This document shows, in pieces, positions 29,778 through 44,218 of a DNA stretch of 64,000 nt. Numbering within the stretch: position 1 is the first letter of the stretch; each line of letters starts with the position of its first letter. Source of the DNA: Solirubrobacterales bacterium (GTDB taxonomy: Bacteria; Actinomycetota; Thermoleophilia; Solirubrobacterales; Solirubrobacteraceae); the NCBI GenBank assembly GCA_003138355.1, contig PLFX01000026.1:1-64000 (forward strand). The letters run 5' to 3'. A program made the position numbers and the translations under genes. The notes under the pieces are model-generated. The model was not told the DNA's origin and did not search any database. It was given only the letters and a program-made list of their open reading frames with translations.

Positions 29778-29968
29778 ACAGCGTCGAGCTTGCTGCGGAT
29801 GCGTGCGAGCTCGCGCGAAAGCTCGTTGAGCCTGCGCTCGAGGGCCGGCATGCCGGGACCGGAGCGCGATCTGGTGTGGGAGCGCTGACGCAATAGCGCG
29901 ATGAGGAGCTCGAGGCGCAGCGCGCGACGTTCGAGACGGTAGCGCTCGAGCTCGTCGCCGATCGTCAT
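29768..29968 (-). CDS. 66-residue coiled-coil protein after the ABC permease
   Basis: A short charged helical protein (starts MTIGDELERYRLERRALRLE, ends RIRSKLDAVYM). The ATG shares its A with the permease stop (TGATG), indicating translational coupling, so it belongs to the exporter operon. It has no membrane segment. Probably a small accessory of the exporter, function unknown. Confidence 0.62.
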   Translation of the reverse strand: MTIGDELERYRLERRALRLELLIALLRQRSHTRSRSGPGMPALERRLNELSRELARIRSKLDAVYM

Positions 29969-31218
29969 CACACGGTCCTCAGCGCATCGGTCGGCGAGAG
30001 GCGTGCGGCGCGCAGCGCAGGGAGCAGTCCCGCGATCGCGCCGATTGCGATCGCAGCGCCGAGTCCGCCAGCCCACGCGGAGGCCGGAATCACGACCGGC
30101 TCGTGCTTGGCGCTGGCGTAGATCGCGGTCGCGATGACGCCGAGTCCGATGCCAACGGCCCCGCCGACGAGCGAGAGCAGGACGGCTTCGGAGAGGAATT
30201 GCGCGCGGATGTGGCCCCGCGTTGCGCCGAGCGCGCGGCGCAAGCCGATCTCCGAGCGGCGTTCGAGCACCGAGATGACCATGATGTTCGCGACGCCGAC
30301 CGCGCCGACGAGCAGCGAGACGGCGCCGAGGCCGAGGAAGAGGCCGTTGAGCGCGCTTTGTGCGTCGGCGCGAGCCTGGAGCGCGGCGGACGGGTTGCTG
30401 ACGTCGACATTGCTCGGCGTCTCGGGGTCGGCGGTCGCGGCGAGCACGTTGTGGACGGCGTTCACGGCGTTGTTCTGGGCGCGCAGGTAGATCGTCGTCG
30501 GGTGCCCGTCGAAGCCCAGGTAGCGCTCGGCGGCTGTGAACCCGACGAGCACGGAGCTGTCGATCTCGGGCGCCAAGGTCGCCGCCGAGAGGATCCCGGC
30601 GACGTAGAACCACGTGCCGCCGAGCCAGATCCGCTCGCCTGGGTAGATGCGATCGATGCCGAGGAGCTGGGCGGCCTGCCAGCCGAGCACCGCGACGGGC
30701 TCGGTCTCGGTTGCCGCGTTGAGGTAGCTGCCGGCGATTACGTGCGAGCCGACAACCCCCGGCAGCCCGGTCGATGCAGCATCGACGCTCAGCCCGTTCG
30801 TGTTGATGGCGGGGATCAGCCGGCTGCGATAGACGCTTGCAGAGGTCGAGCCGGTGCTCGCGACCGACTCGACGGGGCCGATGCGCCGGATCATCGCCGG
30901 GGCCGCCTCGGGCAGCTCGGCGGTCTGGCCGAACAGCGTCTGGCCGTTCGTAACCTCGAGCAGGTTGGTGCCGAGGCGGCTGATCTCGGTGAGGAGGTTC
31001 GCGCTCGAGGACGCTGAGAGGCCAAGCACGGCAACGATCGCGGCGACGCCAATCGCAATCCCGAGCGCCGACAGCGCGGCGCGCACGCGCCGCGTGCGCA
31101 GTCCGATGCTCGCGATCCTCAGCATGTCGGCCGAACGCAGATGCCCCACAGCGGGACCGCCGTTTGGATGCGCGGTCAATGCGGCGACCGCTGCCGGGTG
31201 GTCGTCGCTCGCGCTCAT
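29968..31218 (-). CDS. MacB-type ABC transporter permease (FtsX family)
   Basis: 416 residues. Topology is that of MacB: a first helix (about 45-70, ALSALGIAIGVAAIVAVLGL), a large periplasmic domain of about 210 residues, then three C-terminal helices (SLLVGAVGVANIMVISVLER, LSLVGGAVGIGLGVIATAIY, GLGAAIAIGAIAGLLPALRA) with the family motif ERRSEIGLRRALGATRGHI. MacB complexes use the ATPase as a mechanotransmission motor on periplasmic substrates. It overlaps the ATPase stop by four bases. Confidence 0.92.
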   Translation of the reverse strand: MSASDDHPAAVAALTAHPNGGPAVGHLRSADMLRIASIGLRTRRVRAALSALGIAIGVAAIVAVLGLSASSSANLLTEISRLGTNLLEVTNGQTLFGQTAELPEAAPAMIRRIGPVESVASTGSTSASVYRSRLIPAINTNGLSVDAASTGLPGVVGSHVIAGSYLNAATETEPVAVLGWQAAQLLGIDRIYPGERIWLGGTWFYVAGILSAATLAPEIDSSVLVGFTAAERYLGFDGHPTTIYLRAQNNAVNAVHNVLAATADPETPSNVDVSNPSAALQARADAQSALNGLFLGLGAVSLLVGAVGVANIMVISVLERRSEIGLRRALGATRGHIRAQFLSEAVLLSLVGGAVGIGLGVIATAIYASAKHEPVVIPASAWAGGLGAAIAIGAIAGLLPALRAARLSPTDALRTV

Positions 31219-31949
31219 CGAACGAGTGGCTCCCGCGCTGCGCGCATCATCTGACCGCTGGGGGCGACGCCGCTGTCGGCAACGATCCGCCCATCGCGAA
31301 GCTCGACCTGGCGCGGCATGCGATCAGCGATCTCGTGGTCGTGTGTGATGACGAGGATCGTCGCCCCCGCCCGGTTCAGCTCATCGAGCAGATCGAGGAT
31401 CGTCTTGCCCGTTGCGCTATCGAGGTTGCCGGTCGGCTCATCGGCGAGGATGATCGCCGGGTGCCCAACGAGCGCGCGCGCGATCGCGACGCGCTGGCGC
31501 TCGCCGCCCGAGAGCTGTGGCGGGCGAAAGCGCGCGCGCTGCGCGAGCCCGACCGAGTCGAGTGCTTCGGCGGCGGCCGCGTGGCGCACCGCCGCCGGCG
31601 CGCCCGTGTAGAGCAGCCCGTCGCCGACGTTTTCCAGCGCGCTCGCGTGCTCGGCGAGGAAGAACTGTTGGAAGATGAAGCCGATCTCGGTTGCGCGCAG
31701 CCCTGCGAGCTCGCGGTCGTTCAGCTGGCTCACGTCGAAGCCGCTGATGCGCACCGTCCCCTCGCTCGGCCGGTCGAGCGTCCCCATCACGTGCAGCAGG
31801 GTCGACTTCCCCGAGCCCGACGGCCCGACGATCGCGACGAGCTCACCGCGCGCGACCTCGAAGCTGACTTCGTCGAGCGCGATGACTGGCGGCTGTGCCG
31901 GGTAGCGCTTGGTGACGGCGTCGAGCTCGAGGACCGGCCCAGCCGTCAT
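31215..31949 (-). CDS. MacB-type ABC transporter ATP-binding protein
   Basis: 244 residues, LolD/MacB class. Walker A GPSGSGKSTLLH, Q-loop FIFQQFFLAEH, signature LSGGERQRVAIARAL, Walker B AIILADEPTGNLDS, switch VITHDHEIAD. Pairs with the FtsX-type permease. The start overlaps the adaptor stop and its stop overlaps the permease start, so the operon is translationally chained. Confidence 0.94.
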   Translation of the reverse strand: MTAGPVLELDAVTKRYPAQPPVIALDEVSFEVARGELVAIVGPSGSGKSTLLHVMGTLDRPSEGTVRISGFDVSQLNDRELAGLRATEIGFIFQQFFLAEHASALENVGDGLLYTGAPAAVRHAAAAEALDSVGLAQRARFRPPQLSGGERQRVAIARALVGHPAIILADEPTGNLDSATGKTILDLLDELNRAGATILVITHDHEIADRMPRQVELRDGRIVADSGVAPSGQMMRAAREPLVR

Positions 31950-34339
31950 GACGAGGCGACCACGATCTTCTCGCCGACCTGCACGCCCTGCCCCATTATC
32001 TGGACCATTCCGTTTGCGTCGTCGAACAGCCCGACGCTCACCGCCTGGAGCTGGTGCGTGCCGTTGGGGAGCACTTCCTCGATCGCGTAGCCGCCGTTTG
32101 CGAGGGCGAGCAGCGATGCCACGGGCACTACAAGCGCGTTGCTGGCGGTCCCCTCGGTGATCGCGACCGTCACCGGCGCGTCATCGAGCGTGCCGGTCGC
32201 CGCCGGATCATTCGGGGTGATGTAGACGTTGATCGTCGGCGTGCTGCTGCCGCCACCCTGGCCCTGGTCCGAGCTCGAGCTGGCGACCTTCCCGACGTAG
32301 GAGATCCGGCCCGGTGTCGTGTTGTTGTTCGGCAGCGTGATCGTGACGGCGTCGCCGACCGCGACCTCAGACTGAATCGCGGCGTCGAGCTGCACCACCA
32401 CCTGGCGCGTCAGCGCCGTACCCGATAGCACCGGCGATCCCGGCTGCACAGCCTCGCCCTTCTGCGCGGTGATCGTCGTGACGCGCAGGGCGCCGGGCGC
32501 GAACACGACATCGCCGAGCGCGACGACGCCGGTCTGCGCCACCCGGTTCGCCCGCTGCCAGGCGCGAACCGCGGCAGCCGTCTGCGCGCTGAACTGGTCG
32601 CTCGCCGTGCCCGTCTCATACCCGAGCGCGATCAGGTTCGCGTTCAGTGCCGTGACGTCGGTGCCAGGGCTGACGCCTTCCTCGAGCGCGCGATAAGGGA
32701 TCACGTTTCCGTAGAACAGCGGGACGGGCTTCCCGTCAAGCTCGTAGACCGGCTGCCCGCGGGGGATCACGGTCCCGCCGCTCGGCAGCCAGGTGTAGCG
32801 CACGCCGGAGTTCGTCGCCTGCGCCTGCGCCTGGCTGTAGACCTGTTGAGCCTGCGAGAGCGCCTGCTCGTCACTCGTGAGCTGCGCGGAATCCTGGCTC
32901 GTCGATGAGCCGGCCGTCAGTTTGTCGACCGCCAGCGAGTCCTTGGCCTGTGCCAGCGCCTGCTCGTCCTCGCGTACGACCTGTGCTTGCGCGACGCAGG
33001 AGGACTGCACGGTCTGGAATGTCGCTGACTGCCCCGTCGAGGTGCCGAGGCTGTTGCTCGCGACGAGCGCAAAGAGGTAGGTCGTGTTCGGCTTCAGGCC
33101 GCTGACGGTCGCCTGGACCGAGATCGAGCCGGAATCGGCGTTGGCCGTCTGCACCGGCGTCTTTGAGCCGAGCGAGCTGCTCGTCCCGTATTCGAAGTAG
33201 TAGCTCGTGCTCAGGCTGCCCGGCACGACGGTGCCGCTGAACGTCGCGCCGGTCGACTGCGGCGTCGCGCTACCGGTCGTCGCCTGCGGGCCGGCAGTTG
33301 TCGTGAACGACGCTTCCTGGCCGTAGCCCGTGCCCTGCGAGTTGACTGCGACGAGGCGGAAATCGTAGGTGGTACCCGGCGCCAGGCCGGACAAGCTCGC
33401 CGTGATCGCGACCGGGTTCATCCCGGAGCCAGCGTCCTGCGTCGCCGTCTGCGAGCCGAACGCGCTGCTCGTGCCGTACTGGAAGTAGTAGGTGGTGTCG
33501 GCGCCGTCGGGGGTCACGGAGCCGGTCAGCGTCGTGCCGCTGCTCGAGGTCCCGTCGACCGAGCCGGTCTGCGCGCTCGGAGCGCTCACCGAACCGCTCG
33601 GTCCGGTGCCGGCGTCAGCGACGTGGGCGTCTGGCGCATGATGCGTGCTAGGCGAGCCGCTGTTGCCGTTGCCGGTGCTCCCCGACGGGGAGCTGCCGCT
33701 ACTCGGGTTGTTGGCATTGCCGTTCGAGTTGCTGTTGTTGGCGTTGCTGCTGCCGTTGTTGGGGCTTGATCCGCCGCTCAGCGCGGTCGTCGTCGTCGAG
33801 GATGACGCCGGTGGGCAACCGAGCCGCTGGTCGGCGGTCAGCTGCGCCTTGGCGGCGGCGAGCCCCGACTCATCGCTCGCGACGGTCGCTGCGGCGGCGC
33901 TGACCGTGGCGGCGTTCTGCGGGCCGGCGAGCTTGCGCGCGGCGGCGAGCGTGTGCTCGTCTTGCGCGACCTTCGCCTCGTCCTGCTGCACTGTTGCGGA
34001 GTCCTGCGTGAGCTCGGAGCCCGCGGTGCCAGTCGGTATCGAGACCGTGTAGGAGCCCGAGTAGCCGAGGGTCCCGCTCTGGTCGGTCTGTGAGGTGATC
34101 GTCTCGCGCGCGATGGTCTGGTAGGAGACCGGAGCGCCGTTGTCGAGATGCTGCGCTGGGGCGCCGCCACCACCAAGAGTGACGACCAGGACTACCGCGA
34201 CGGCGATCACCGCCGCGCCGAGTGCGCCGAGTGCACTGCGCCGGCGCCACCACCGCGGTGGGCGGCCATCGCCGCCCACCGCGGGGGTTCCGGCGCGCAT
34301 GCTCACGGGTGCACCCGGCCCGCCGCCGGTGGCGCTCAC
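31946..34339 (-). CDS. Efflux adaptor with two fibronectin-like inserts and a peptidoglycan-binding-like domain
   Basis: 797 residues, about twice the usual adaptor length. Order: basic N-terminus and one membrane helix (about 35-60), coiled coil (TQDSATVQQDEAKVAQDEH), an Asn/Ser/Gly low-complexity linker, two Fn3-like domains of about 85 residues (TTYYFQYGTSSAFGS and TSYYFEYGTSSSLGS mark equivalent strands), a second coiled coil (DEQALSQAQQVYSQAQAQAT), a PG-binding-like helical unit (GTDVTALNANLIALGYETG) and a beta-barrel C-terminus (VVVQLDAAIQSEVAVGDAVT). It links the ABC exporter to the wall. GTG 34339 overlaps the stop of the lipoprotein remnant. ATG 34300 is the alternative start. Confidence 0.85.
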   Translation of the reverse strand: MSATGGGPGAPVSMRAGTPAVGGDGRPPRWWRRRSALGALGAAVIAVAVVLVVTLGGGGAPAQHLDNGAPVSYQTIARETITSQTDQSGTLGYSGSYTVSIPTGTAGSELTQDSATVQQDEAKVAQDEHTLAAARKLAGPQNAATVSAAAATVASDESGLAAAKAQLTADQRLGCPPASSSTTTTALSGGSSPNNGSSNANNSNSNGNANNPSSGSSPSGSTGNGNSGSPSTHHAPDAHVADAGTGPSGSVSAPSAQTGSVDGTSSSGTTLTGSVTPDGADTTYYFQYGTSSAFGSQTATQDAGSGMNPVAITASLSGLAPGTTYDFRLVAVNSQGTGYGQEASFTTTAGPQATTGSATPQSTGATFSGTVVPGSLSTSYYFEYGTSSSLGSKTPVQTANADSGSISVQATVSGLKPNTTYLFALVASNSLGTSTGQSATFQTVQSSCVAQAQVVREDEQALAQAKDSLAVDKLTAGSSTSQDSAQLTSDEQALSQAQQVYSQAQAQATNSGVRYTWLPSGGTVIPRGQPVYELDGKPVPLFYGNVIPYRALEEGVSPGTDVTALNANLIALGYETGTASDQFSAQTAAAVRAWQRANRVAQTGVVALGDVVFAPGALRVTTITAQKGEAVQPGSPVLSGTALTRQVVVQLDAAIQSEVAVGDAVTITLPNNNTTPGRISYVGKVASSSSDQGQGGGSSTPTINVYITPNDPAATGTLDDAPVTVAITEGTASNALVVPVASLLALANGGYAIEEVLPNGTHQLQAVSVGLFDDANGMVQIMGQGVQVGEKIVVASS

Positions 34340-34431
34340 TTGCCGCCTCCGACGGGTCTCAGGGTCACGGGCGCGTCCGGGAGGGAGCCGCACGTTTGCT
34401 GCGCGCTCTGGAACACCCCCTGCGAGCTCAC
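34336..34431 (-). CDS. 31-residue remnant of a third CMR/FPDP lipoprotein
   Basis: A GTG-start frame overlapping the stop of the neighbouring lipoprotein gene (GTGA) and ending in TGA that overlaps the adaptor GTG. Its peptide contains FQSAQQTCGSLPDAP and ends GGGK, matching the last part of the adjacent lipoprotein (FQHAQQACSKLPGAP, GGGGK). It holds only the second half of the module and has no signal peptide. It looks like the 3' end of a tandem duplicate, kept as a coupling link for adaptor translation. Confidence 0.6.
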   Translation of the reverse strand: MSSQGVFQSAQQTCGSLPDAPVTLRPVGGGK

Positions 34432-35102
34432 TTACCGCCCCCTCCGAGCCCGGGCGGCGCGCCCGGGAGCTTGCTGCACGCCTGCTGCGCGTGCTGGAAG
34501 ATCGGCGAGTTGGGATCGAGCCCGCTGTCCGGTCCGCCCCTAATCGAAAGACTGACGCCGCCGCCACTGCCCCTCGTCGGATCGGGGTAGCCCGGGACGC
34601 CATGGCCGCGCATGCACTGCGAGTACTTGAGCAGGTGTGCGTAGTCCTGCTGCTGCTGGGCTGGGGAGAAGCTCGGGTGTGGGAGGTCCTTGCCGCACTT
34701 GCTCTGTGCCGCCTGGAACTGCGTGGAGTTGGCGTCGATGCCCTGGGCAGATCCGAACGAGAACGCGCCTTGCGAGTTCGGGTCGGGGAAGTTGGGCTCG
34801 CCGTTGGCGCGCATGCACTTCGCGTAGCGGAGCTCCTGCGCGGCGCTGGCACCGACCGGCTTCATTACCGCCTGGGACTCGTTGTGGCCGTTGCTGGGGG
34901 AGGATGAGCCACCGACGGACGAAGGCGCGCCGCCGCCCGAGCCGTCGTTGTTGGCGTTCGAGCTGTGGTGCGACTTGCCGAGGTTGGCGACACCCGGCGA
35001 GCTGCCGCCACCGCAGGCCGCGACCGCTAGCGCGAGAATGCACACGCTCAGTGCGGCCAAACCGGGAAGGGCCCCGCGACGACGCTGACGTGGTTCAGTC
35101 AT
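34428..35102 (-). CDS. Lipoprotein with two CMR/FPDP modules (copy B)
   Basis: 224 residues. Signal peptide with lipobox LAVAAC at about 25, then a Ser/Asn/Gly linker starting GVANLGKSHHSS. Two modules follow: YAKCMRANGEPNFPDP ... FQAAQSKC and YSQCMRGHGVPGYPDP ... FQHAQQAC. Each has two cysteines about 40 residues apart, likely a disulfide, and a DPxSP-like element (ANSTQF, DPNSPIF). Proteins with this motif are common in actinobacteria but have no function known to me. ATG 35102 is chosen because it opens the signal peptide. It is followed by the remnant and adaptor genes without gaps. Confidence 0.85.
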   Translation of the reverse strand: MTEPRQRRRGALPGLAALSVCILALAVAACGGGSSPGVANLGKSHHSSNANNDGSGGGAPSSVGGSSSPSNGHNESQAVMKPVGASAAQELRYAKCMRANGEPNFPDPNSQGAFSFGSAQGIDANSTQFQAAQSKCGKDLPHPSFSPAQQQQDYAHLLKYSQCMRGHGVPGYPDPTRGSGGGVSLSIRGGPDSGLDPNSPIFQHAQQACSKLPGAPPGLGGGGK

Positions 35103-35174: not shown

Positions 35175-35864
35175 TCATTGCTTGGTTGTCGCCAATCCCG
35201 GACTCGGGCGACCCTTCGGCCCGAGCCCAAGGCTTGTACATGCCTGCATCGCGCGCTGGAAGCTCGGCGAGCTCGGGTCGAGCCCGCTCCCCGGACCGCC
35301 GATCCGGACCGCGGCTTGCCCGCCCGAGCCGAACTGCGGGTCTGGGTAGTTCGTCACGCCGTGGCTGCGCATGCACTGCGAGAAGCGGAGCGCCGCCGCC
35401 TTCGCGGCCGCCTGCTGTGCGGGCGTGAAGTGGGGAGTGGGTAGATCCTTCCGGCATTTCCGCATCGCCGCCTGGAACTGCGGCGAGCGCGGATCGATGC
35501 CATTGCCGGAACCGAATTGGAGGGAACCGCCGGCCCCCGGGTCGGGGAAATTGGCGACGCCGTTCACGCGCATGCATCTCGAAAACTTGAGCGCTGCCTT
35601 GCGGCCGCCCGCTCCAATCGCCACCTCGACCGCGCCGCCGGCGCCGCCCGCGCTGGCCGCCGAGCCGCTGCCGGCAGAGCCGACCGAAGAGGAGCCCGAG
35701 CTCGACGCGCCGGCGGTCCCCGAGGCGTGGTGCGACTTGCCGAGCGTGGCGACGCTGGGCGAGCTGCCGCCGCCGCAGCCGGCTAGCGCGGCCGCGATCG
35801 CCAGCGCGGCAAGCGCCGCGAGCGCGGTGGGTCGACGACGCGAGAGGGCGATCGGGTTCGTCAC
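35175..35864 (-). CDS. Lipoprotein with two CMR/FPDP modules (copy A)
   Basis: 229 residues. Signal peptide MTNPIALSRRRPTALAALAA with lipobox LAGC, then VATLGKSHHAS as in copy B and a Ser/Gly/Ala linker. The modules are FSRCMRVNGVANFPDP ... DPRSPQFQAAMRKC and FSQCMRSHGVTNYPDP ... DPSSPSFQRAMQAC. It is a paralogue of copy B arising by duplication. It is the first gene of the minus-strand exporter operon, divergent from the response regulator, and the extracytoplasmic location matches the kinase sensor domain. GTG start at 35864. Confidence 0.86.
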   Translation of the reverse strand: MTNPIALSRRRPTALAALAALAIAAALAGCGGGSSPSVATLGKSHHASGTAGASSSGSSSVGSAGSGSAASAGGAGGAVEVAIGAGGRKAALKFSRCMRVNGVANFPDPGAGGSLQFGSGNGIDPRSPQFQAAMRKCRKDLPTPHFTPAQQAAAKAAALRFSQCMRSHGVTNYPDPQFGSGGQAAVRIGGPGSGLDPSSPSFQRAMQACTSLGLGPKGRPSPGLATTKQ

Positions 35865-35967: not shown

Positions 35968-36034
35968 ACCGTCCGCGCATGCTGGAGAAACGCACTGACG
36001 CCCGGCGAACGGTCAGACTGTGTGTGGCGCCGCG

Positions 36035-36694
36035 ATGCGCGTACTGATCGTCGAAGACCACAAGGAGCTTGCGCAAACGATCGCGCTGGGCCTGCGCCGT
36101 GAGGGCATGGCGGTCGACGTCGCGCTTGACGGCGAGACCGGTTTGCGCCGCGCGCTCCAGGACACCTACGACGTCGTCGTGCTAGATCGCGACCTGCCGC
36201 TCGTGCACGGTGACGACGTCTGTCGCGCGCTGGTCGCCGCGGCGGTGCGGGCGCGCGTGCTGATGCTGACCGCCGCGGACAACGTCGAGAGTCGCGTCGA
36301 CGGGCTGAGTCTCGGCGCCGACGATTACCTGTCCAAGCCGTTCGCCTTCGCCGAGCTTGTCGCGCGCGTTCGCGCCCTTGTCCGCCGCGGCCAACCGGCG
36401 CGGGCGCCGATCCTGGCGAGTGGCGACATCCGCCTCGACACGACGCAGCGCGTCGCGACGCGCGGCGGTCGTCGACTCGAGCTCAGCCCGAAGGAGCTGG
36501 CGGTGCTCGAGCTGCTGCTCGCGGCCGATGGCGCGCCGCTTTCGGCCGAGGAGCTGCTGGAGCGCGCCTGGGACGAGTACGCCGATGCATTCAGCGGCGT
36601 CGTAAAGGTCACGATCAGCCGGCTGCGCCGCAAGCTCGGCGAGCCCGCGGCGATCGAGACGGTGCCGCGTGCCGGTTACAGGCTGCGGTCGTGA
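36035..36694 (+). CDS. OmpR-family response regulator
   Basis: 219 residues. Receiver domain with acidic pair VEDH, phospho-acceptor Asp in VVVLDRDLPLVHGDD, Thr in LMLTAAD and Lys in YLSKPFAF. The C-terminal winged helix ends RRKLGEPAAIETVPRAGYRLR. ATG 36035 gives the standard MRVLIVEDH start. Partner of the next gene (GTGA overlap). The likely target is the divergent exporter operon, via the GGTTACA dyad. Confidence 0.95.
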   Translation: MRVLIVEDHKELAQTIALGLRREGMAVDVALDGETGLRRALQDTYDVVVLDRDLPLVHGDDVCRALVAAAVRARVLMLTAADNVESRVDGLSLGADDYLSKPFAFAELVARVRALVRRGQPARAPILASGDIRLDTTQRVATRGGRRLELSPKELAVLELLLAADGAPLSAEELLERAWDEYADAFSGVVKVTISRLRRKLGEPAAIETVPRAGYRLRS

Positions 36695-38220
36695 CGCACC
36701 GACGGCTGAGCGAACGCCTGACGCGCCGCTGGCGACCGTTGCCGCTGCGGACGATCCGACTGCGCTTGACGCTCGTCTACGGCGGTTTGTTTCTCGTCTG
36801 CGGGGCGGCGTTGCTGGGCATCACCTACGGCCTCGTGTCGAGCCAGTACACGACGAGCTTCTTCATCAAGAGCGGCGCCGACCAGGTTGCGACGCAGGTC
36901 GGGGAGGTCGGCGGCGCCCTCTCCCGCAGCTTCACCGCCAGCGGCGCGAACCCCTACAGCGCGGCGCCCGCCGTCAAGCTGGCGATCGGCGGTTCGAGCC
37001 CCGTGGCGGCGCTGGCGTTCTCGAAGTGCATGCGAGCCAACGGCGAGCCCAACTTTCCCGACCCTATCGCCAAAGGCAGCATCTGGCTGCTGCACATCGC
37101 CGCGGTCGATCCCGGCTCGCCGCGGTTCGTCGCGAGCACGCAGACGTGTGGGAAGGGCCAGGCGCTTCACGTCACCCGCTCGGTCTCGGTCACGGTGCAC
37201 GCGCTTGGCACCGGCGGCGGCAACATCACCGTCGTGCCGTCGGGTGCGCTGCGGGCCGGCCTCGACCTCAACGCTCCGTCGAGACACTACCTCGAGACGG
37301 CCGCAGTCGGCCAGGTGAACGCGGCGCGCGGGCGGCTGCTGCTCGAGCTCGGCATCGCACTGGCGATCACCGCGCTGATCGCAATCGGCCTCGGCTGGGT
37401 GGTTGCCGGGCGCGCTCTGCGGCCGCTGCGTGAGATCACGGCGGCGGCACAGGAGATCTCCGCGACGAGCCTGCACCGGCGGCTCGGCCTCAGCGGTCCG
37501 GACGATGAGCTGCGCCGGCTTGGCAACACGTTCGACCGCCTGCTCGAACGGCTCGACCGGGCGTTCAGTGCACAGCGCCAGTTCGCCGCGAACGTATCGC
37601 ACGAGCTGCGCACGCCGCTCACCTACGAACGTACGCTGATCGAGGTCGCGCTAGCCGACCCGAACGCCGACGCGCACCAGCTGCGAGCGGTATGCGAGCA
37701 GTTGCTGCGCTCCGGCGAGCAGCAGCAGCGGCTGATCGACGCGCTGCTCGATCTCTCCCGCGGACAGCGCGGCATCGAGGCGCGCGAGCCGATCGATCTG
37801 GCGGAGCTCGTCGGGCGCGTGATGACCGGTATCCACGCAAAGGGGCTGAGGGTCGAAGCCTCACTGCAGCCGGCAAGCGCAACAGGCGAGCCCCGGCTCG
37901 TCGAGCCTCTGGTCGCCAACCTCATCGCGAACGCCGTCGTCCACAACGTGAACGACGGTTGGATCGAGGTCTCCACCGAGACCCGTGAAGGTCGCGCGAC
38001 GCTCAGCGTGAAGAACAGCGGGCCGCTCGTCGACGTGGCGGACGTCGACCGCCTCTTCGAGCCCTTCGAGCGCATCGCGGGCGCCCGTACCACCGGCGGC
38101 GAAGGTGTCGGCCTCGGCCTCTCCATCGTCAAGGCGATCGCCGAGGCCCACGACGCAACCATCACCGCGCACCCAATCCCCGAAGGCGGCCTCGCAATCA
38201 CCGTCACCTGGGCGCCATAG
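36691..38220 (+). CDS. Sensor histidine kinase with a CMR/FPDP extracellular module
   Basis: 509 residues. Helix 1 (about 27-50), an extracytoplasmic sensor (about 51-208), helix 2 (about 210-235), HAMP (RALRPLREITAAAQEIS), H-box SHELRTPL with His304, N-box NLIANAVVHN and G-box GVGLGLSIVKAIAEAH. The sensor contains FSKCMRANGEPNFPDP, then DPGSPRFVASTQTC (C113 and C153), the same two-Cys module as the two lipoproteins across the divergent promoter. This suggests that kinase and lipoproteins share a ligand or interact. GTG start coupled to the regulator. Confidence 0.92.
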   Translation: MTHRRLSERLTRRWRPLPLRTIRLRLTLVYGGLFLVCGAALLGITYGLVSSQYTTSFFIKSGADQVATQVGEVGGALSRSFTASGANPYSAAPAVKLAIGGSSPVAALAFSKCMRANGEPNFPDPIAKGSIWLLHIAAVDPGSPRFVASTQTCGKGQALHVTRSVSVTVHALGTGGGNITVVPSGALRAGLDLNAPSRHYLETAAVGQVNAARGRLLLELGIALAITALIAIGLGWVVAGRALRPLREITAAAQEISATSLHRRLGLSGPDDELRRLGNTFDRLLERLDRAFSAQRQFAANVSHELRTPLTYERTLIEVALADPNADAHQLRAVCEQLLRSGEQQQRLIDALLDLSRGQRGIEAREPIDLAELVGRVMTGIHAKGLRVEASLQPASATGEPRLVEPLVANLIANAVVHNVNDGWIEVSTETREGRATLSVKNSGPLVDVADVDRLFEPFERIAGARTTGGEGVGLGLSIVKAIAEAHDATITAHPIPEGGLAITVTWAP

Positions 38221-38469
38221 CCGCCACTACCAGCGAAGCTCACCCGGGCCGGCACCGGCGGGAGACGCCCCCATCCCGGCCCAGACGGAGCGCACGCGAA
38301 GCCCGGCGAGGAGCCCATCCCACCACGGGCACGCCACATCACCCGAGCGCAAGGATGGGCCCGCAGGCGTCAGAGTTCTGCCAATAGCGCAACCCCTCGC
38401 AAGGTCCGGCGTTCTTGCTGGCGAACGCGTTCCCCAGTGGTCCGCAAGTCAAGGTCGAGGAGGTTCAAC
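38221..38469. other. 249-bp spacer upstream of the secreted-protein gene
   Basis: No credible gene. Contains a ribosome-binding site GAGGAGG (38457-38463) for the gene at 38470. No clear promoter elements. Confidence 0.5.
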
Positions 38470-39150
38470 ATGCGCAAACTCCGCTCGCGCTCGAAAGCCG
38501 TCAGGTTGACGGCTGCAACGGTCTTATGTCTGGGCGCCGCCGGTGCCGCCTACGCCGCGACGGGAACCAGCCAATTCGTCGGGCCCGCCGGCAACATCAC
38601 GAGCTGTCTGCCGCCGCGTGGCGGACAGGTTCATATCTGGCTGCCCGGGCACCACTGCTCCGGCGGCTGGGCGCAGCTCAATTGGGGCGCCGTCGGCGCC
38701 ACAGGCCCGGCCGGTGCGACCGGTGCGACAGGTCCGGTCAATCCGTCGGCCAACACCGTCAACGGTCAGACCATCTCGAAGTTCATGCTCAAGGTGCCGA
38801 CGCCCGGCTCCGGTACGACGACCTCGACGCTCTACAGCGCGAACGGGCTCACGATCCTCGCCGAGTGCGACAGCTCGGGCAACGCGAGCCTCGTGGCGAA
38901 CGGTCCGTCGAGCAACGACTCCGAGCTGACGGTCAGCGGCGAGTCCAACGGCGGCACCTTCGGCTCGCAGACGAACAATCTCGGCGCCTCGAGCAACGCG
39001 ACGCTCGGACCCGCGGCATCCGGGCACTCGTCGTTCGCCTACGCGAGCAGCTCGGGCACCGTCCTGACGGGCAGCATCGGCTACCAGAAGGCCAGCTCGT
39101 TCGCGACCTACGCCGGTTGCGCGTTCTTCGGCGACCTCATCTCCGGCTGA
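38470..39150 (+). CDS. Secreted protein with a short collagen-like segment
   Basis: 226 residues. A signal peptide (RLTAATVLCLGAAGAAYA) probably cleaved near AYA-A, a region with two Cys, a short Gly-X-Y run (GATGPAGATGATGP, about residues 78-91) and a Ser/Asn/Gly-rich beta-type C-terminus with a final Cys pair (AECDSS, YAGCAFF). Such proteins occur in families of surface proteins in actinobacteria. No function is known. ATG 38470 has a strong ribosome-binding site. A hairpin terminator follows the stop. Confidence 0.78.
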   Translation: MRKLRSRSKAVRLTAATVLCLGAAGAAYAATGTSQFVGPAGNITSCLPPRGGQVHIWLPGHHCSGGWAQLNWGAVGATGPAGATGATGPVNPSANTVNGQTISKFMLKVPTPGSGTTTSTLYSANGLTILAECDSSGNASLVANGPSSNDSELTVSGESNGGTFGSQTNNLGASSNATLGPAASGHSSFAYASSSGTVLTGSIGYQKASSFATYAGCAFFGDLISG

Positions 39151-39365: not shown

Positions 39366-40442
39366 TCAACATATCCGCGGCAACGGGTCTCCCGCGAGCG
39401 TGTCGACCACGCGCGAGCCGCCGAAGGTCGTGTCGAGGATCACCATCCCGGGCCGCTCTTCGCGGATCTCGCCGATCAGGGTGGCTTCGCGGCCGAGCGG
39501 GTGCGCGCGCATCGTTGCGAGCGCGACCTCGGCTACCTCGGGCCCGACGATCGCGATCAGCTTGCCTTCGTTGGCGACATACAGCGGATCGATGCCAAGG
39601 ATTTCGCAGGCACCGGCGACTGTCGCGGCCACCGGGATCGCGCTCTCGTCGATGACGATGCCCGTGCGCGAAGCGCGCGCAAGCTCGTTGAGCGCGGTGG
39701 CGACGCCGCCGCGGGTCGGGTCGCGCATGCAGTGGACAGCCGCACCGCAGGCGGCGAGGAGGGCGGCCACGAGCCCGTGCAGCGGCGCCGTGTCGCTCTC
39801 GATCGCACCTTCGAGCTCGAGCTCTCCGCGCGCGACGAGGACGGCCATCCCGTGGTCGCCGATCGTGCCCGAAAGGAGAACGCGGTCGCCCGAGCGGATC
39901 TCCTGCGCGCCCAGCTTGCTACTAGCAGCGACCAGCCCGATGCCGCTGGTCGAGATGTAGAGCCCGTCCGCTTTGCCCCGCTCGACGACCTTGGTGTCGC
40001 CGGTCGCGATCGGCACCCCGGCCTCGCGCGCCGTCTCGCCGAGCGAGGCGACGTAGCGCGCGAGCTCCGCCACCGCGAGGCCCTCCTCGAGGATCAGGCC
40101 GGCGGAGAGCGCGAGCGGCTGCGCCCCGGACACGGCGAGGTCGTTGATCGTCCCGTGGACCGCGAGCCTTGCGATGTCGCCGCCGGGGAAACTCAGCGGC
40201 TTGACGACGTAGCTGTCGGTGCTGAACGCGAGCTGCGTCCCGTCCTCGAGCTCGAGGATCGCAGCGTCGGCGAGCGGTTCGAGCAGCGAGTTTCGCAGCG
40301 CCGGCAGCAACAGGGCCTCGACGAGCGCCTGCGAGGAACGCCCGCCGGCTCCGTGCGCAAGCGTGATCCGCTCGTCGAGCAGGCGGCGTGAGGCGCGCTG
40401 GCGGCGGGCCTCGATCCGCTCGAGGACCTCGCGCTCGTCCAT
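39366..40442 (-). CDS. hypE: Hydrogenase maturation protein HypE
   Basis: 358 residues. Dehydrates the carbamoyl group on its C-terminal Cys to a thiocyanate that becomes the CN ligand of the NiFe site. The protein ends in the diagnostic PRIC. AIRS/PurM-fold landmarks: LAHGAGGRSSQALV, FSTDSYVVKPLSFPGGDI, VHGTINDLAVSGA, MRDPTRGGVATALNE. ATG 40442 shares bases with the hypD stop (TAATG). The frame remains open upstream over hypD without relevance. Confidence 0.96.
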   Translation of the reverse strand: MDEREVLERIEARRQRASRRLLDERITLAHGAGGRSSQALVEALLLPALRNSLLEPLADAAILELEDGTQLAFSTDSYVVKPLSFPGGDIARLAVHGTINDLAVSGAQPLALSAGLILEEGLAVAELARYVASLGETAREAGVPIATGDTKVVERGKADGLYISTSGIGLVAASSKLGAQEIRSGDRVLLSGTIGDHGMAVLVARGELELEGAIESDTAPLHGLVAALLAACGAAVHCMRDPTRGGVATALNELARASRTGIVIDESAIPVAATVAGACEILGIDPLYVANEGKLIAIVGPEVAEVALATMRAHPLGREATLIGEIREERPGMVILDTTFGGSRVVDTLAGDPLPRIC

Positions 40443-41563
40443 TACGCCGGCGTGCGCTCGCTGCGGCGCTCGAGCCGCCCGTAGTTGTAATAGGCGGCGC
40501 AGGCGCCCTCGCTCGAGACCATGCACGTCCCGATCGGCCGCTCCGGCGTGCACGCAGTCCCGAAGACCTTGCACTCCCAGGGACGCAGCGCGCCGCGCAG
40601 CACCTCGCCGCATTGGCATGCGGGCGGGTCGGCGACGCGGGTGCCGGGCAGCTCGAAGCGCCGTTCGGCGTCGAATTGCCCCCAGCGCTCCCGCACGCCC
40701 AGCGCGCTGCGCTCGATGAACCCGAGCCCGCGCCACTCGAACGTGTCGCGCACCTCCATCGTCTCCTCGATCACGGCGAGCGCGCGCTCGTTGCCCTCGC
40801 GCCGCACGACGCGCACGTACTGGTTCTCGACTTCGCAGCGCCCTTCGGTGAGCTGGCGCAACAGCATGTAGATGCTCTGGAGCACATCGAGCGGCTCGAA
40901 GCCGGCGACGACGACGGGCTTGCGGTACTCGGATGCGATGAACTCGTACGGCTGCGTCCCGATCACGGTCGAGACGTGTCCGGGGCCGATGAACCCGTCG
41001 AGCTGGAGGTCGGGCGCATCGAGGATCGCGCGCAGCGGCGGCGGCACGAGCACGTGGTTGCAGAAGATGGAGAAGTTATTGGCGCCTTCGGCGCCGGCGC
41101 GAAGCAGCGTCAGTGCCGTAGACGGCGCGGTCGTCTCGAAGCCGATCGCAAAGAACACGACCTGGCGATCCGGGTTCTCTCGCGCGAGCCGCAGCGCGTC
41201 GAGTGGCGAGTACACCATCCGCACGTCGGCGCCGCGTGCCTTCGCGTCGAGCAGCGAGCCGTTTGTCGCTGGCACGCGCAGCATGTCGGCGAACGTCGTG
41301 AAGATCACCCCGTCCTGCTCGGCGATCGCGATCGCGTCGTCCTGGCGGCCCATCGGGATCACGCAGACGGGACAGCCCGGGCCGTGCACGAGCTGCACCT
41401 CGGCCGGCAACAGATCCTCGATCCCGTGACGGTAGATCGCATGCGTGTGGCCGCCGCAGATCTCCATCAGCTTGTAGCTCGAGCCCGGCTCGACGAGCGC
41501 CGCGATCCGCTCAGCGAGGCCGGCCGCGATCTCGCCCGAGCGGTATTCGCTCAGGTGCTTCAC
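40442..41563 (-). CDS. hypD: Hydrogenase maturation protein HypD
   Basis: 373 residues. Redox-active Fe-S scaffold that with HypC assembles the Fe(CN)2CO unit. Visible: MEICGGHTHAIYRHG, HGPGCPVCVIP, the Fe-S cysteines in CQCGEVLRG ... ECKVFGTACTPERPIGTCMVSSEGAC. Full length. Coupled to hypE and to the hypC-like gene at 41560 (ATGA). Confidence 0.97.
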   Translation of the reverse strand: MKHLSEYRSGEIAAGLAERIAALVEPGSSYKLMEICGGHTHAIYRHGIEDLLPAEVQLVHGPGCPVCVIPMGRQDDAIAIAEQDGVIFTTFADMLRVPATNGSLLDAKARGADVRMVYSPLDALRLARENPDRQVVFFAIGFETTAPSTALTLLRAGAEGANNFSIFCNHVLVPPPLRAILDAPDLQLDGFIGPGHVSTVIGTQPYEFIASEYRKPVVVAGFEPLDVLQSIYMLLRQLTEGRCEVENQYVRVVRREGNERALAVIEETMEVRDTFEWRGLGFIERSALGVRERWGQFDAERRFELPGTRVADPPACQCGEVLRGALRPWECKVFGTACTPERPIGTCMVSSEGACAAYYNYGRLERRSERTPA

Positions 41564-41778
41564 TGGACGACCCGTTCGAGCGCGACGCCCGCGTGACAGA
41601 GGAGCTGCTCGCCGAGCTCGACGGGAGCGACGAGCTCGACCGCGACCTCCTCGCGCGCGCCGCCTGCCCCCCGCGATGGGGGGTCACACTCGACGACCGC
41701 GCTCTGCCCGCGCAGCTCGACGACGCGCGCGACGATCGCGACGTCACCGCACGTGATGCAGCTGCACGCGTCCATCAC
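41560..41778 (-). CDS. Second HypC-like hydrogenase chaperone
   Basis: 72 residues of the HypC/HybG/HupF family: CSCITCGDVAIVARVVELRG ... GEQLLCHAGVALERV. Canonical HypC has an essential Cys at position 2. Here the first cysteines are at 5, 7 and 10, so either the real start is later or the role is modified. It overlaps both hypD and hypC. A HypC paralogue may serve the large subunit while the other serves HypD. That split is inference. Confidence 0.8.
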   Translation of the reverse strand: MMDACSCITCGDVAIVARVVELRGQSAVVECDPPSRGAGGAREEVAVELVAPVELGEQLLCHAGVALERVVQ

Positions 41779-42044
41779 TCGATCCTGCTCGCGCGGAGCT
41801 CCCCGAGCTCCTGCTCGTAGGGGGCGCCGAGCGTCTCGAGCAGCTCACGGGTGGCGAGCGCCTCCGACTCGTCGATCCGCGAGAGGGCGAACCCGACGTG
41901 CAGCAGCACCCAATCGCCGACGTCCACATCGCCATCGAGGAGCGCCACGTTGACGACGCGCCGTACGCCCGAGACGTCGACCTTCGCGAGCTGCAGCTCC
42001 GCGTCGATCAGCTCGACGACCTGTGCTGGTATCCCAAGGCACAT
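41775..42044 (-). CDS. hypC: Hydrogenase maturation chaperone HypC
   Basis: 89 residues. Begins MCLGIPAQVVELID with the essential Cys2 and has DWVLLHVGFALSRIDE typical of the C-terminal helix. Carries the Fe(CN)2CO unit between HypD and the large subunit. Overlaps the second HypC-like gene by four bases and follows hypF directly. Confidence 0.95.
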   Translation of the reverse strand: MCLGIPAQVVELIDAELQLAKVDVSGVRRVVNVALLDGDVDVGDWVLLHVGFALSRIDESEALATRELLETLGAPYEQELGELRASRIE

Positions 42045-42046
42045 GC

Positions 42047-44218
42047 TTAGCGACCTCCTTGCGCTGCGGCGACGGCGGCTTGACCGTAGCTGATTCCACC
42101 GTCGTTCGGCGGTACGAGGCGGTGCGTGAGCACGCGAAAGCCGCGTGCCGTCAGCCCGCCGGCGATCGATTGCACCAACCGCAGGTTCTGGAAGCTCCCG
42201 CCGGAGAGCACGACGGTTCGAGGCGTGGCGGCCGCTTCACATGCGGTGATTGCGGCGGCGGCGAGCCCCTCGTGGAACGCGGCCGCGATCTCCTCCCGCG
42301 GGCGCCCGGCGGCGAGGTCGTCATGCACGGCGGCGACGAGGTCGCTGCCATAGATCAGCTCGTCCGTCACGCGGCACGCGTAGGGCTCGGCCGGGGTGCT
42401 CCCGGCGAGTTCCTCGAGAGCGATCGCCGCCTGCCCCTCATAGCTCACGTGTTCGAACCCGCAGACGAGCGCGGCGACCGCATCGAACAACCGCCCGGCG
42501 CCGGAGGTGGACGGCGCGCCGATGCGCAGGCCCTGGCGCACATCGGGCCAGCGCTCGAACGGCACCGGCCTGCGCGCGCGCTCGAGGTAGGCACCGGCGA
42601 TCCGCCACGGCTCGCGAATCGCCGCCTCGCCGCCGGGCAGGGCGACCGGCTCCAGATGGGCGAGCCGCTCGAACCCAGCGAGGTCGCAGCGCAGCAGCTC
42701 CCCGCCCCAAAGCGTGCCGTCGCTGCCGAGGCCCGTCCCGTCGAAGACGAGTGCGAGGGCCGGCGCGGTCACGCCGTGTTCGGCGAGGCAGGCAGCGGCG
42801 TGCGCGTGGTGGTGCTGCACGCGCACGAGCTCTGCGTCCTGTTCGAGCGCCCAGCGCGTTGAGGCGTAGTCGGGGTGCAGGTCGCAGGCGATGATCTCGG
42901 GTCGCAGCGCGAGCGCTTCGAGCGTGAGTGCAACGTCGGCCGCGAACGCCTCGCGCGCCGCGGGCGCGTCGAGGTCTCCGAGGTGCGCCGATAGCCACGC
43001 GCGCTGCCCGTGGGCCACGCAGAAGGTTGCCTTCAGCTCGGCGCCAGCGGCGAGCAGCGGGTGGCGGGCCGCCACCGGCAGCGCGAGCCAGTCCGGCGCG
43101 TGGCCGCGCGAGCGACGGATCGGAAAGGCGGCGCGCACGACGGAGTCCTCGCAGCGGCGGTGGATCGGGCGGTCGTGGTCGAGAAAGGCGTCGGCCAGCC
43201 ACCGCAGGCGCCGACGTGCCTCGTCGTCGTCGATGCAGATCGGCTCGTCGGTGAGGTTTCCGCTCGTCATCACGAGTGGCCGCCCCGCATCGGCCACCAG
43301 CAGGTGATGGAGCGGCGTGTAGGGCGTCATCACGCCGACCCAGCGGCTGTCCGGGGCGACGGACGCTGCGAGCGGAGAGCTTGCGCGCCGGCGCGCGATG
43401 ACGATCGGGCGCGCCGGCGACTCGAGCAGGGCGCGCTCGGCGGCGGTCAGTCGGACGAGCTGTGCGGGCGCGGTGGTCATGACCGCGAGCGGCTTCGCCT
43501 CACGCTGCTTGCGCTCGCGCAGCCGCGCCACGGCCGCCTCGTTGGTCGCATCGCACGCGAGGTGGTAGCCGCCGAGGCCCTTTACGGCGAGGATGCCGCC
43601 GTCGCGCAGGATCGCCAGCGCCGCGTCGAGCCCCAGGCGTAGTTGCGGCCCGCAATCCGGGCAGCAGATCGTCTCCGCATGGTGGCGACGGTCGCGCGGA
43701 TCCTCGTACTCGGCTCGACAGCGTTCGCATAGCGGGAACTGCGCCATCGTCGTGTGCGCACGGTCGTAGGGCAGGCTCTTGACGATCGTGAAGCGCGGTC
43801 CGCAGTGCGTGCAGGTGATGAACGGATGGCGGTAGCGGCGATTGGCGGGGTCGAACAGCTCGCGCACGCATTCCGCGCAGGTGGCGACGTCCGGCGGCAG
43901 CGGGGTCGCGCCGGGCGCTGCCGCGCCCGTGCTGCGCCGGATCTCGAAGCCCTGGGCCCCGGTGACGGGCAGCAGCTCGACCTCGACCGTCGCGACGCGC
44001 GCGAGCGGCGGCGCCTCCGCGGCGATCGCCAGGGCGAAGCGCTCGAGCGCCGCGGGCGGTCCCTCGACCTCGGTGACGACGACCCCGCCGTCGTTTCGCA
44101 CGTGGCCTGTGAGCTCGTGGCGGTGCGCCAGGGCGTGAACGAACGGCCGGAACCCAACCCCCTGAACCACCCCCGTCACTCGCACCCTACGGCGCTCCGG
44201 GAGCGGCGAGGCAGGCAT
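42047..44218 (-). CDS. hypF: Carbamoyltransferase HypF
   Basis: 723 residues. Makes the carbamoyl thioester on HypE from carbamoyl phosphate and ATP. Domain order: acylphosphatase (VTGVVQGVGFRPFVH), two zinc fingers (CAECVRELF ... CTHCGPRF; CERCRAEYEDP ... CCPDCGP), YrdC-like (LAVKGLGGYHLACDA) and a Kae1-like C-terminus (VQHHHAHAAACLAEHG, VLSGGSFQNLRLV). Length normal. The stop of hypA meets its start. Confidence 0.96.
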   Translation of the reverse strand: MPASPLPERRRVRVTGVVQGVGFRPFVHALAHRHELTGHVRNDGGVVVTEVEGPPAALERFALAIAAEAPPLARVATVEVELLPVTGAQGFEIRRSTGAAAPGATPLPPDVATCAECVRELFDPANRRYRHPFITCTHCGPRFTIVKSLPYDRAHTTMAQFPLCERCRAEYEDPRDRRHHAETICCPDCGPQLRLGLDAALAILRDGGILAVKGLGGYHLACDATNEAAVARLRERKQREAKPLAVMTTAPAQLVRLTAAERALLESPARPIVIARRRASSPLAASVAPDSRWVGVMTPYTPLHHLLVADAGRPLVMTSGNLTDEPICIDDDEARRRLRWLADAFLDHDRPIHRRCEDSVVRAAFPIRRSRGHAPDWLALPVAARHPLLAAGAELKATFCVAHGQRAWLSAHLGDLDAPAAREAFAADVALTLEALALRPEIIACDLHPDYASTRWALEQDAELVRVQHHHAHAAACLAEHGVTAPALALVFDGTGLGSDGTLWGGELLRCDLAGFERLAHLEPVALPGGEAAIREPWRIAGAYLERARRPVPFERWPDVRQGLRIGAPSTSGAGRLFDAVAALVCGFEHVSYEGQAAIALEELAGSTPAEPYACRVTDELIYGSDLVAAVHDDLAAGRPREEIAAAFHEGLAAAAITACEAAATPRTVVLSGGSFQNLRLVQSIAGGLTARGFRVLTHRLVPPNDGGISYGQAAVAAAQGGR

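Follow-up and report, generated by a model that had tools for sequence, protein, structure and literature searches.

A two-cysteine lipoprotein module in the extracytoplasmic loop of a sensor histidine kinase encoded beside a MacB-type pump operon

In contig PLFX01000026.1 of a Solirubrobacterales bacterium, of which we analysed a stretch of 64,000 nucleotides (the window), a sensor histidine kinase and a lipoprotein encoded nearby on the opposite strand share a short segment of nearly identical DNA. Why should proteins of such different types have this segment in common, and was it exchanged between them recently? The features of the locus that bear on these questions are listed here.

29968 to 31218, minus strand: MacB-type permease with MacB_PCD (PF12704, 5e-19) and FtsX (PF02687, 2e-23) domains
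31215 to 31949, minus strand: LolD/MacB-type ABC ATPase (PF00005, 2e-32)
31946 to 34302, minus strand (start estimated): HlyD/MacA-like adaptor with Fn3-like and PG_binding_1 domains
34338 to 34430, minus strand: leftover of a module C terminus, VFQSAQQTCGSLPDAPVTLRPVGGGK and a stop, matching at 31/40 bases with a parallel peptide
34428 to 35102, minus strand: lipoprotein B, lipobox AVAAC, modules at 34689-34853 and 34470-34655
34780 to 34822, minus strand: counterpart of the kinase core in lipoprotein B (41/43 bases)
35175 to 35864, minus strand: lipoprotein A, lipobox LAGC, modules at 35448-35612 and 35235-35414
36020 to 36694, plus strand: OmpR-type response regulator, the partner of the kinase (Response_reg, Trans_reg_C); the real start is probably 36035
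36691 to 38220, plus strand: sensor histidine kinase with TM1, a loop holding the module, TM2, HAMP, HisKA and HATPase (Pfam HAMP, HisKA, HATPase_c)
36991 to 37155, plus strand: single CMR...FPDP...C module in the extracytoplasmic loop, with Cys113 and Cys153 (E=7e-30 with a profile that includes the kinase)
37022 to 37064, plus strand: core of the kinase module, identical to module 1 of lipoprotein B at 41/43 bases

Directly downstream of the kinase, positions 38437-39150 (plus strand) probably encode a secreted protein that includes a short collagen-like stretch, GATGPAGATGATGPV. Beyond it, 39366-44218 (minus strand) holds frames that resemble, by sequence appearance, the hydrogenase maturation genes HypE, HypD, HypC, and HypF.

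The first-pass annotation had reported that 38 bases of the kinase gene (37027-37064, plus strand), beginning at the Cys113 codon, match the reverse complement of 34780-34817 in the lipoprotein B gene at 36 positions and that the surroundings diverge. Our recount confirms the 36/38 match, position 37027 begins the codon for Cys113 of ORF 36691-38220, and the flanking parts of the module agree at just 64/123 bases (52%) and 11/41 residues. This is the top match of the window, with module 1 of lipoprotein A the runner-up at 30/38, and as DNA it lies far above random sequence; five bases added upstream extend it to 41/43. Both mismatches (CGA/CGC and TTT/TTC) are synonymous third-position differences, so the 14 residues of KCMRANGEPNFPDP are identical in the kinase and lipoprotein B.

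From the identity at third positions, the annotation had gone on to propose a recent transfer or gene conversion of the module, and here the evidence points elsewhere. We simulated the same peptide being encoded twice independently, with codon usage taken from 48 frames in the window that are likely to be coding. Given an identical peptide, the expected match is 33.7/38, and 36 or more matching bases occur with P=0.12; for the identical-peptide stretch, which agrees at 39/41 bases, P=0.11. Among 308 identical-peptide module pairs drawn from different loci in many organisms, 32% reach at least 36/38; one pair that spans two genera, Amycolatopsis and Paractinoplanes, agrees at 38/38 bases. Because codon usage and cross-locus pairs give equally good matches, identity at third positions does not argue for recent transfer, and on the basis of the simulation and the cross-genome pairs we reject recent gene conversion as deduced from it. 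Codon identity at shared, conserved residues is 0.67 for same-locus pairs versus 0.64 for different-locus pairs, and the two cores are no more alike at synonymous sites than are codons of equal conservation elsewhere. A conserved peptide together with codon bias yields near-identical core DNA, and the high identity seen here is best put down to purifying selection, in a genome rich in GC, on a peptide that is the same in both proteins, without recent conversion. In GC-rich genomes generally, near-identical DNA is weak evidence of conversion.

A narrower form of conversion would have about 43 bases copied recently between lipoprotein B and the kinase, after an older gain of the module, and would homogenize the core only. 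The sharp fall of the 41/43 identity at either end would suit such an event, but these edges are also the edges of the conserved motif. The kinase and module 1 of lipoprotein B share a Glu in the core, at a position occupied by Val in 169/238 modules and by Glu in 11/238, and outside the core the kinase is closer to other modules than to this one. Local duplication of module DNA is a further point in its favor: the degenerate leftover at 34338-34430, which sits directly after lipoprotein B and before the HlyD gene, is apparently a partial tandem duplication by its sequence and shows that duplication of module fragments occurs at this locus. Set against these points, the simulated probability of about 0.11 to 0.12, the equally good match in 32% of identical-peptide pairs from other loci, and the near absence of a same-locus excess in codon identity (0.67 versus 0.64) make the recent copying of a short tract improbable, and it is not needed to explain the identity. 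The shared rare Glu is slightly unusual and fits descent from a lipoprotein B-like module.

The part of the earlier proposal that stands is that the kinase and the lipoproteins have a homologous module in common. This module spans about 50 residues with the pattern [FY][SA]xCMRx[NH]GVPxFPDP...DPxSPxF..A...C, of which CMR, G, and FPDP are nearly fixed among the 238 modules that we collected. The first cysteine is present in 238/238 and the second, and so both, in 236/238, a conservation that suggests a disulfide between them. In the AF2 model of lipoprotein B, each module forms two helices with the cysteines inside the helices (mean pLDDT 84 for both modules), and the kinase model contains the same helix pair (block pLDDT up to 94, with the rest of the loop poor); the module is probably a disulfide-closed helical hairpin, as far as these models go. 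Lipoproteins A and B have no Pfam match at E<=1, the module region has none in NCBIfam above cut-off, and no PDB sequence matches the module at E<=5; it is ruled out as a sequence family of these three resources, none of which has a matching entry. Fold searches with the AF2 lipoprotein model gave a best Foldseek E=6 and a best VIA Z=3.4, with no convincing structural relative among the matches, and we found no description of the motif or of the cassette described below in the open-access literature searched. Five copies lie in the window (a pair in each of lipoproteins A and B, and one in the kinase), and the whole genome has 13 matches, including other lipoproteins and a second cassette. One further lipoprotein frame with the module is interrupted by an internal TAG stop (G000:C36:22964-23224) and is possibly a decaying gene.

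The protein encoded at 36691-38220 has HAMP, HisKA, and HATPase_c domains after TM2 and is a HAMP-containing HisKA sensor histidine kinase. Its module has both cysteines and the full CMRxxG-FPDP core, and a profile built from lipoproteins only, with the kinase excluded, finds it at E=7e-16. That the motif arose independently in the kinase is hardly credible in view of this score and of a match that spans 50 positions and takes in both cysteines, the DP.SP.F stretch, and the spacing, even though outside the core the kinase shares few residues with the window's lipoprotein modules (11/41 for B and 16/41 for A). The module occurs once in the kinase, which lacks a lipobox, and as a tandem pair in the lipoproteins; the kinase is a carrier of the module and not a member of the lipoprotein family. 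Its extracytoplasmic loop is also long, at approximately 160 amino acids versus a median of approximately 58 in the other cassette kinases.

How widespread is the module among kinases? The lipoprotein-only profile finds it in 4 of 103 kinase sequences, namely those of the window (7e-16) and of loci L203 (2e-9), L098 (3e-5), and L208 (7e-5), and in the kinase tree these are 4 of about 91 distinct kinases, all of them adjoining two-module lipoproteins. The L098, L203, and L208 kinases are related to each other and come from outside the genomes of the window's order; the modules of L208 and L098 are degenerate (E about 3e-5 to 7e-5), and their membership of the module family is weaker. Well-supported branches of the tree force at least two changes of state, which we read as separate gains. 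The kinases nearest by catalytic domain, those of L082 and L131 (clade support 96), have the loop start QYTSxFF in common with the window kinase and lack the module, and sister cassettes in the genus and family of the window encode kinases with short, module-free sensors. At the level of genus, family, and order, with 231 other genomes of the order searched, we detected no orthologous kinase that bears the module; no further one appeared for the window's class in the class and phylum samples, where few candidates per genome were scored and sensitivity was limited, and none was found in a sample of the class of the L098 genome (8 candidates per genome). The widest searches scored 8 candidates per genome, and the rarity of the kinase module is approximate to that extent. 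The kinase of the window has gained the module, and this rare and repeated move into kinases is genuine; the databases and papers that we searched contain no description of it.

Because the lipoprotein-only profile matches the kinase, the nearest kinases lack the module, and the module tree weakly places the kinase copy with a lipoprotein module, transfer from lipoprotein to kinase is likely, and the insertion of a lipoprotein module into the extracytoplasmic loop of the kinase is well supported. In that tree, the kinase module has a long branch (0.81 changes per site) and joins module 1 of lipoprotein B and the relatives of that module from the genus with weak support (SH-aLRT 84), a grouping due mostly to the core. 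When the core is set aside, module 1 of lipoprotein A ranks eighth and module 1 of lipoprotein B 19th among 237 neighbors of the kinase module, several foreign modules also outscore the latter, and the kinase is identical to lipoprotein A at 16/41 residues and to lipoprotein B at 11/41. Since the tree grouping depends on the core and other modules are nearer outside it, the donor can be named only as a lipoprotein module of the two-cysteine kind, probably a local one.

The lipoproteins themselves belong to a conserved actinobacterial cassette that comprises a two-component system, one or more lipoproteins, a peptidoglycan-binding HlyD adaptor, and a MacB-type ABC pump. In the window, a MacB_PCD/FtsX permease is encoded in the same operon as a separate ABC ATPase and a HlyD-type adaptor (HlyD_3 0.0009, just under its cut-off; PG_binding_1 6e-11), and the pump is MacAB-like as judged by its genes. 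Exactly two tandem module copies occur in 129 of 137 module ORFs, and within 7 kb of the 137 there is a kinase in 107 cases, a response regulator in 108, HlyD in 94, the ATPase in 89, and FtsX in 83, at loci that were partly picked through kinase or module searches and some of which were fetched twice. A scan of named genomes found the module in many actinobacteria, and a two-module lipoprotein is present in 17/197 (about 9%) of the genomes sampled across the actinobacterial phylum. A few of the records with the module bear the name Acidobacteriota or Dormibacterota, which may be due to binning errors or to transfer; among them, L082 (Acidobacteriota MAG REEB338) has a cassette close to that of the window, with 75% identity in FtsX and 58-60% in the catalytic part of the kinase, and would be a case of misbinning or transfer.

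Several variants of the cassette came to light along the way. The genome of the window has a second complete cassette (L044, G000:C25:22000-32280) with a kinase, regulator, two-module lipoprotein, HlyD, ATPase, and FtsX, and the kinase there is without the module. Locus L204 (G624:C45) contains four consecutive two-module lipoprotein genes and a fifth that stands apart, together with two two-component systems beside one HlyD gene. Plasmid records yielded four weak relatives of the lipoproteins, and in only one of these does the match lie under an annotated gene, a 'hypothetical protein'.

What might the module do in the kinase? The reading that we favor, and consider rather probable, is that a lipoprotein module was put into the kinase loop, that kinase and lipoprotein recognize one and the same envelope signal, or one another, and that they control the MacB-type pump. 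The module belongs to the cassette lipoproteins; in the lineage of the window, a copy, most likely from the divergently transcribed lipoprotein genes next door, was inserted into the extracytoplasmic loop and then diverged except in its constrained core. The lipoprotein may capture an envelope signal or a pump substrate, such as a membrane-active peptide or a cell-wall compound, and in most cassettes it would inform a kinase with a short sensor. In the window, the kinase itself would bear the recognition module, bind the ligand of the lipoprotein or pair with it module to module, and switch on the operon of lipoproteins and pump. The domain architecture and the precedents discussed below suggest a sensing role; the module may bind a ligand or partner, and the kinase may regulate the adjacent operon. 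On the simplest reading, the module, when on the lipoprotein, would recognize the signal or substrate, and the kinase took it up here and in at least one other lineage.

A doubtful alternative is that the kinase module binds the lipoprotein modules directly, making the lipoprotein an accessory protein of the kinase with no common ligand; the lipoprotein's own two modules may likewise pack on each other. Tandem pairs in 129/137 ORFs would be in keeping with such pairing, as would the known contact of a lipoprotein with a kinase in QseG/QseE (PMC6075780) and the accessory protein CpxP of CpxA (PMC4160245). The low inter-module confidence of the AF2 lipoprotein model (pTM 0.57) argues against it. 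We can suggest only tentatively that these undescribed disulfide-closed surface modules serve actinobacteria as the common recognition unit in a circuit for envelope defence: on the lipoproteins they would capture substrate for a MacB-type pump and, after repeated independent insertion into kinase loops, report that substrate directly to the two-component system in control of the pump. If true, the locus would be a natural experiment on how sensor kinases gain input domains, in that one type of cassette provides the gene that donated the module, the kinase that received it, and sister kinases that lack it. It would also make testable the role of the two-module lipoproteins, which have no family model.

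Among known systems, the Gram-positive MacAB-like pumps Spr0693-0695 (PMC5768738), MadEFG (PMC10614854), and YknWXYZ (PMC4887032) are described as removing antimicrobial peptides, and MadEFG of Enterococcus as being under the two-component system MadRS (PMC10614854). The cassette of the window has in common with them a HlyD/MacA-like adaptor, an ABC ATPase, and a MacB-type permease; its adaptor differs from theirs in having peptidoglycan-binding and Fn3-like domains, and the portions of these reports consulted mention neither module lipoproteins nor a module in a kinase (PMC5768738, PMC10614854, PMC4887032). QseG is a lipoprotein encoded beside a two-component system that binds the kinase QseE and acts on its extracytoplasmic part (PMC6075780). 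Unlike the proteins of the window, QseG and QseE are not described, in the portion of that report consulted, as having one homologous module in common. A comparison can also be drawn with sensor kinases whose sensors are made from a domain type otherwise used by transport proteins. Venus-flytrap sensor domains are of a type otherwise used by transport binding proteins. Such domains are carried by the BvgS-type sensor kinases (PMC5829827), to which the window kinase is in this respect alike. The Venus-flytrap domain of BvgS, however, is a large known fold, whereas the module of the window kinase has about 50 residues and no family model.
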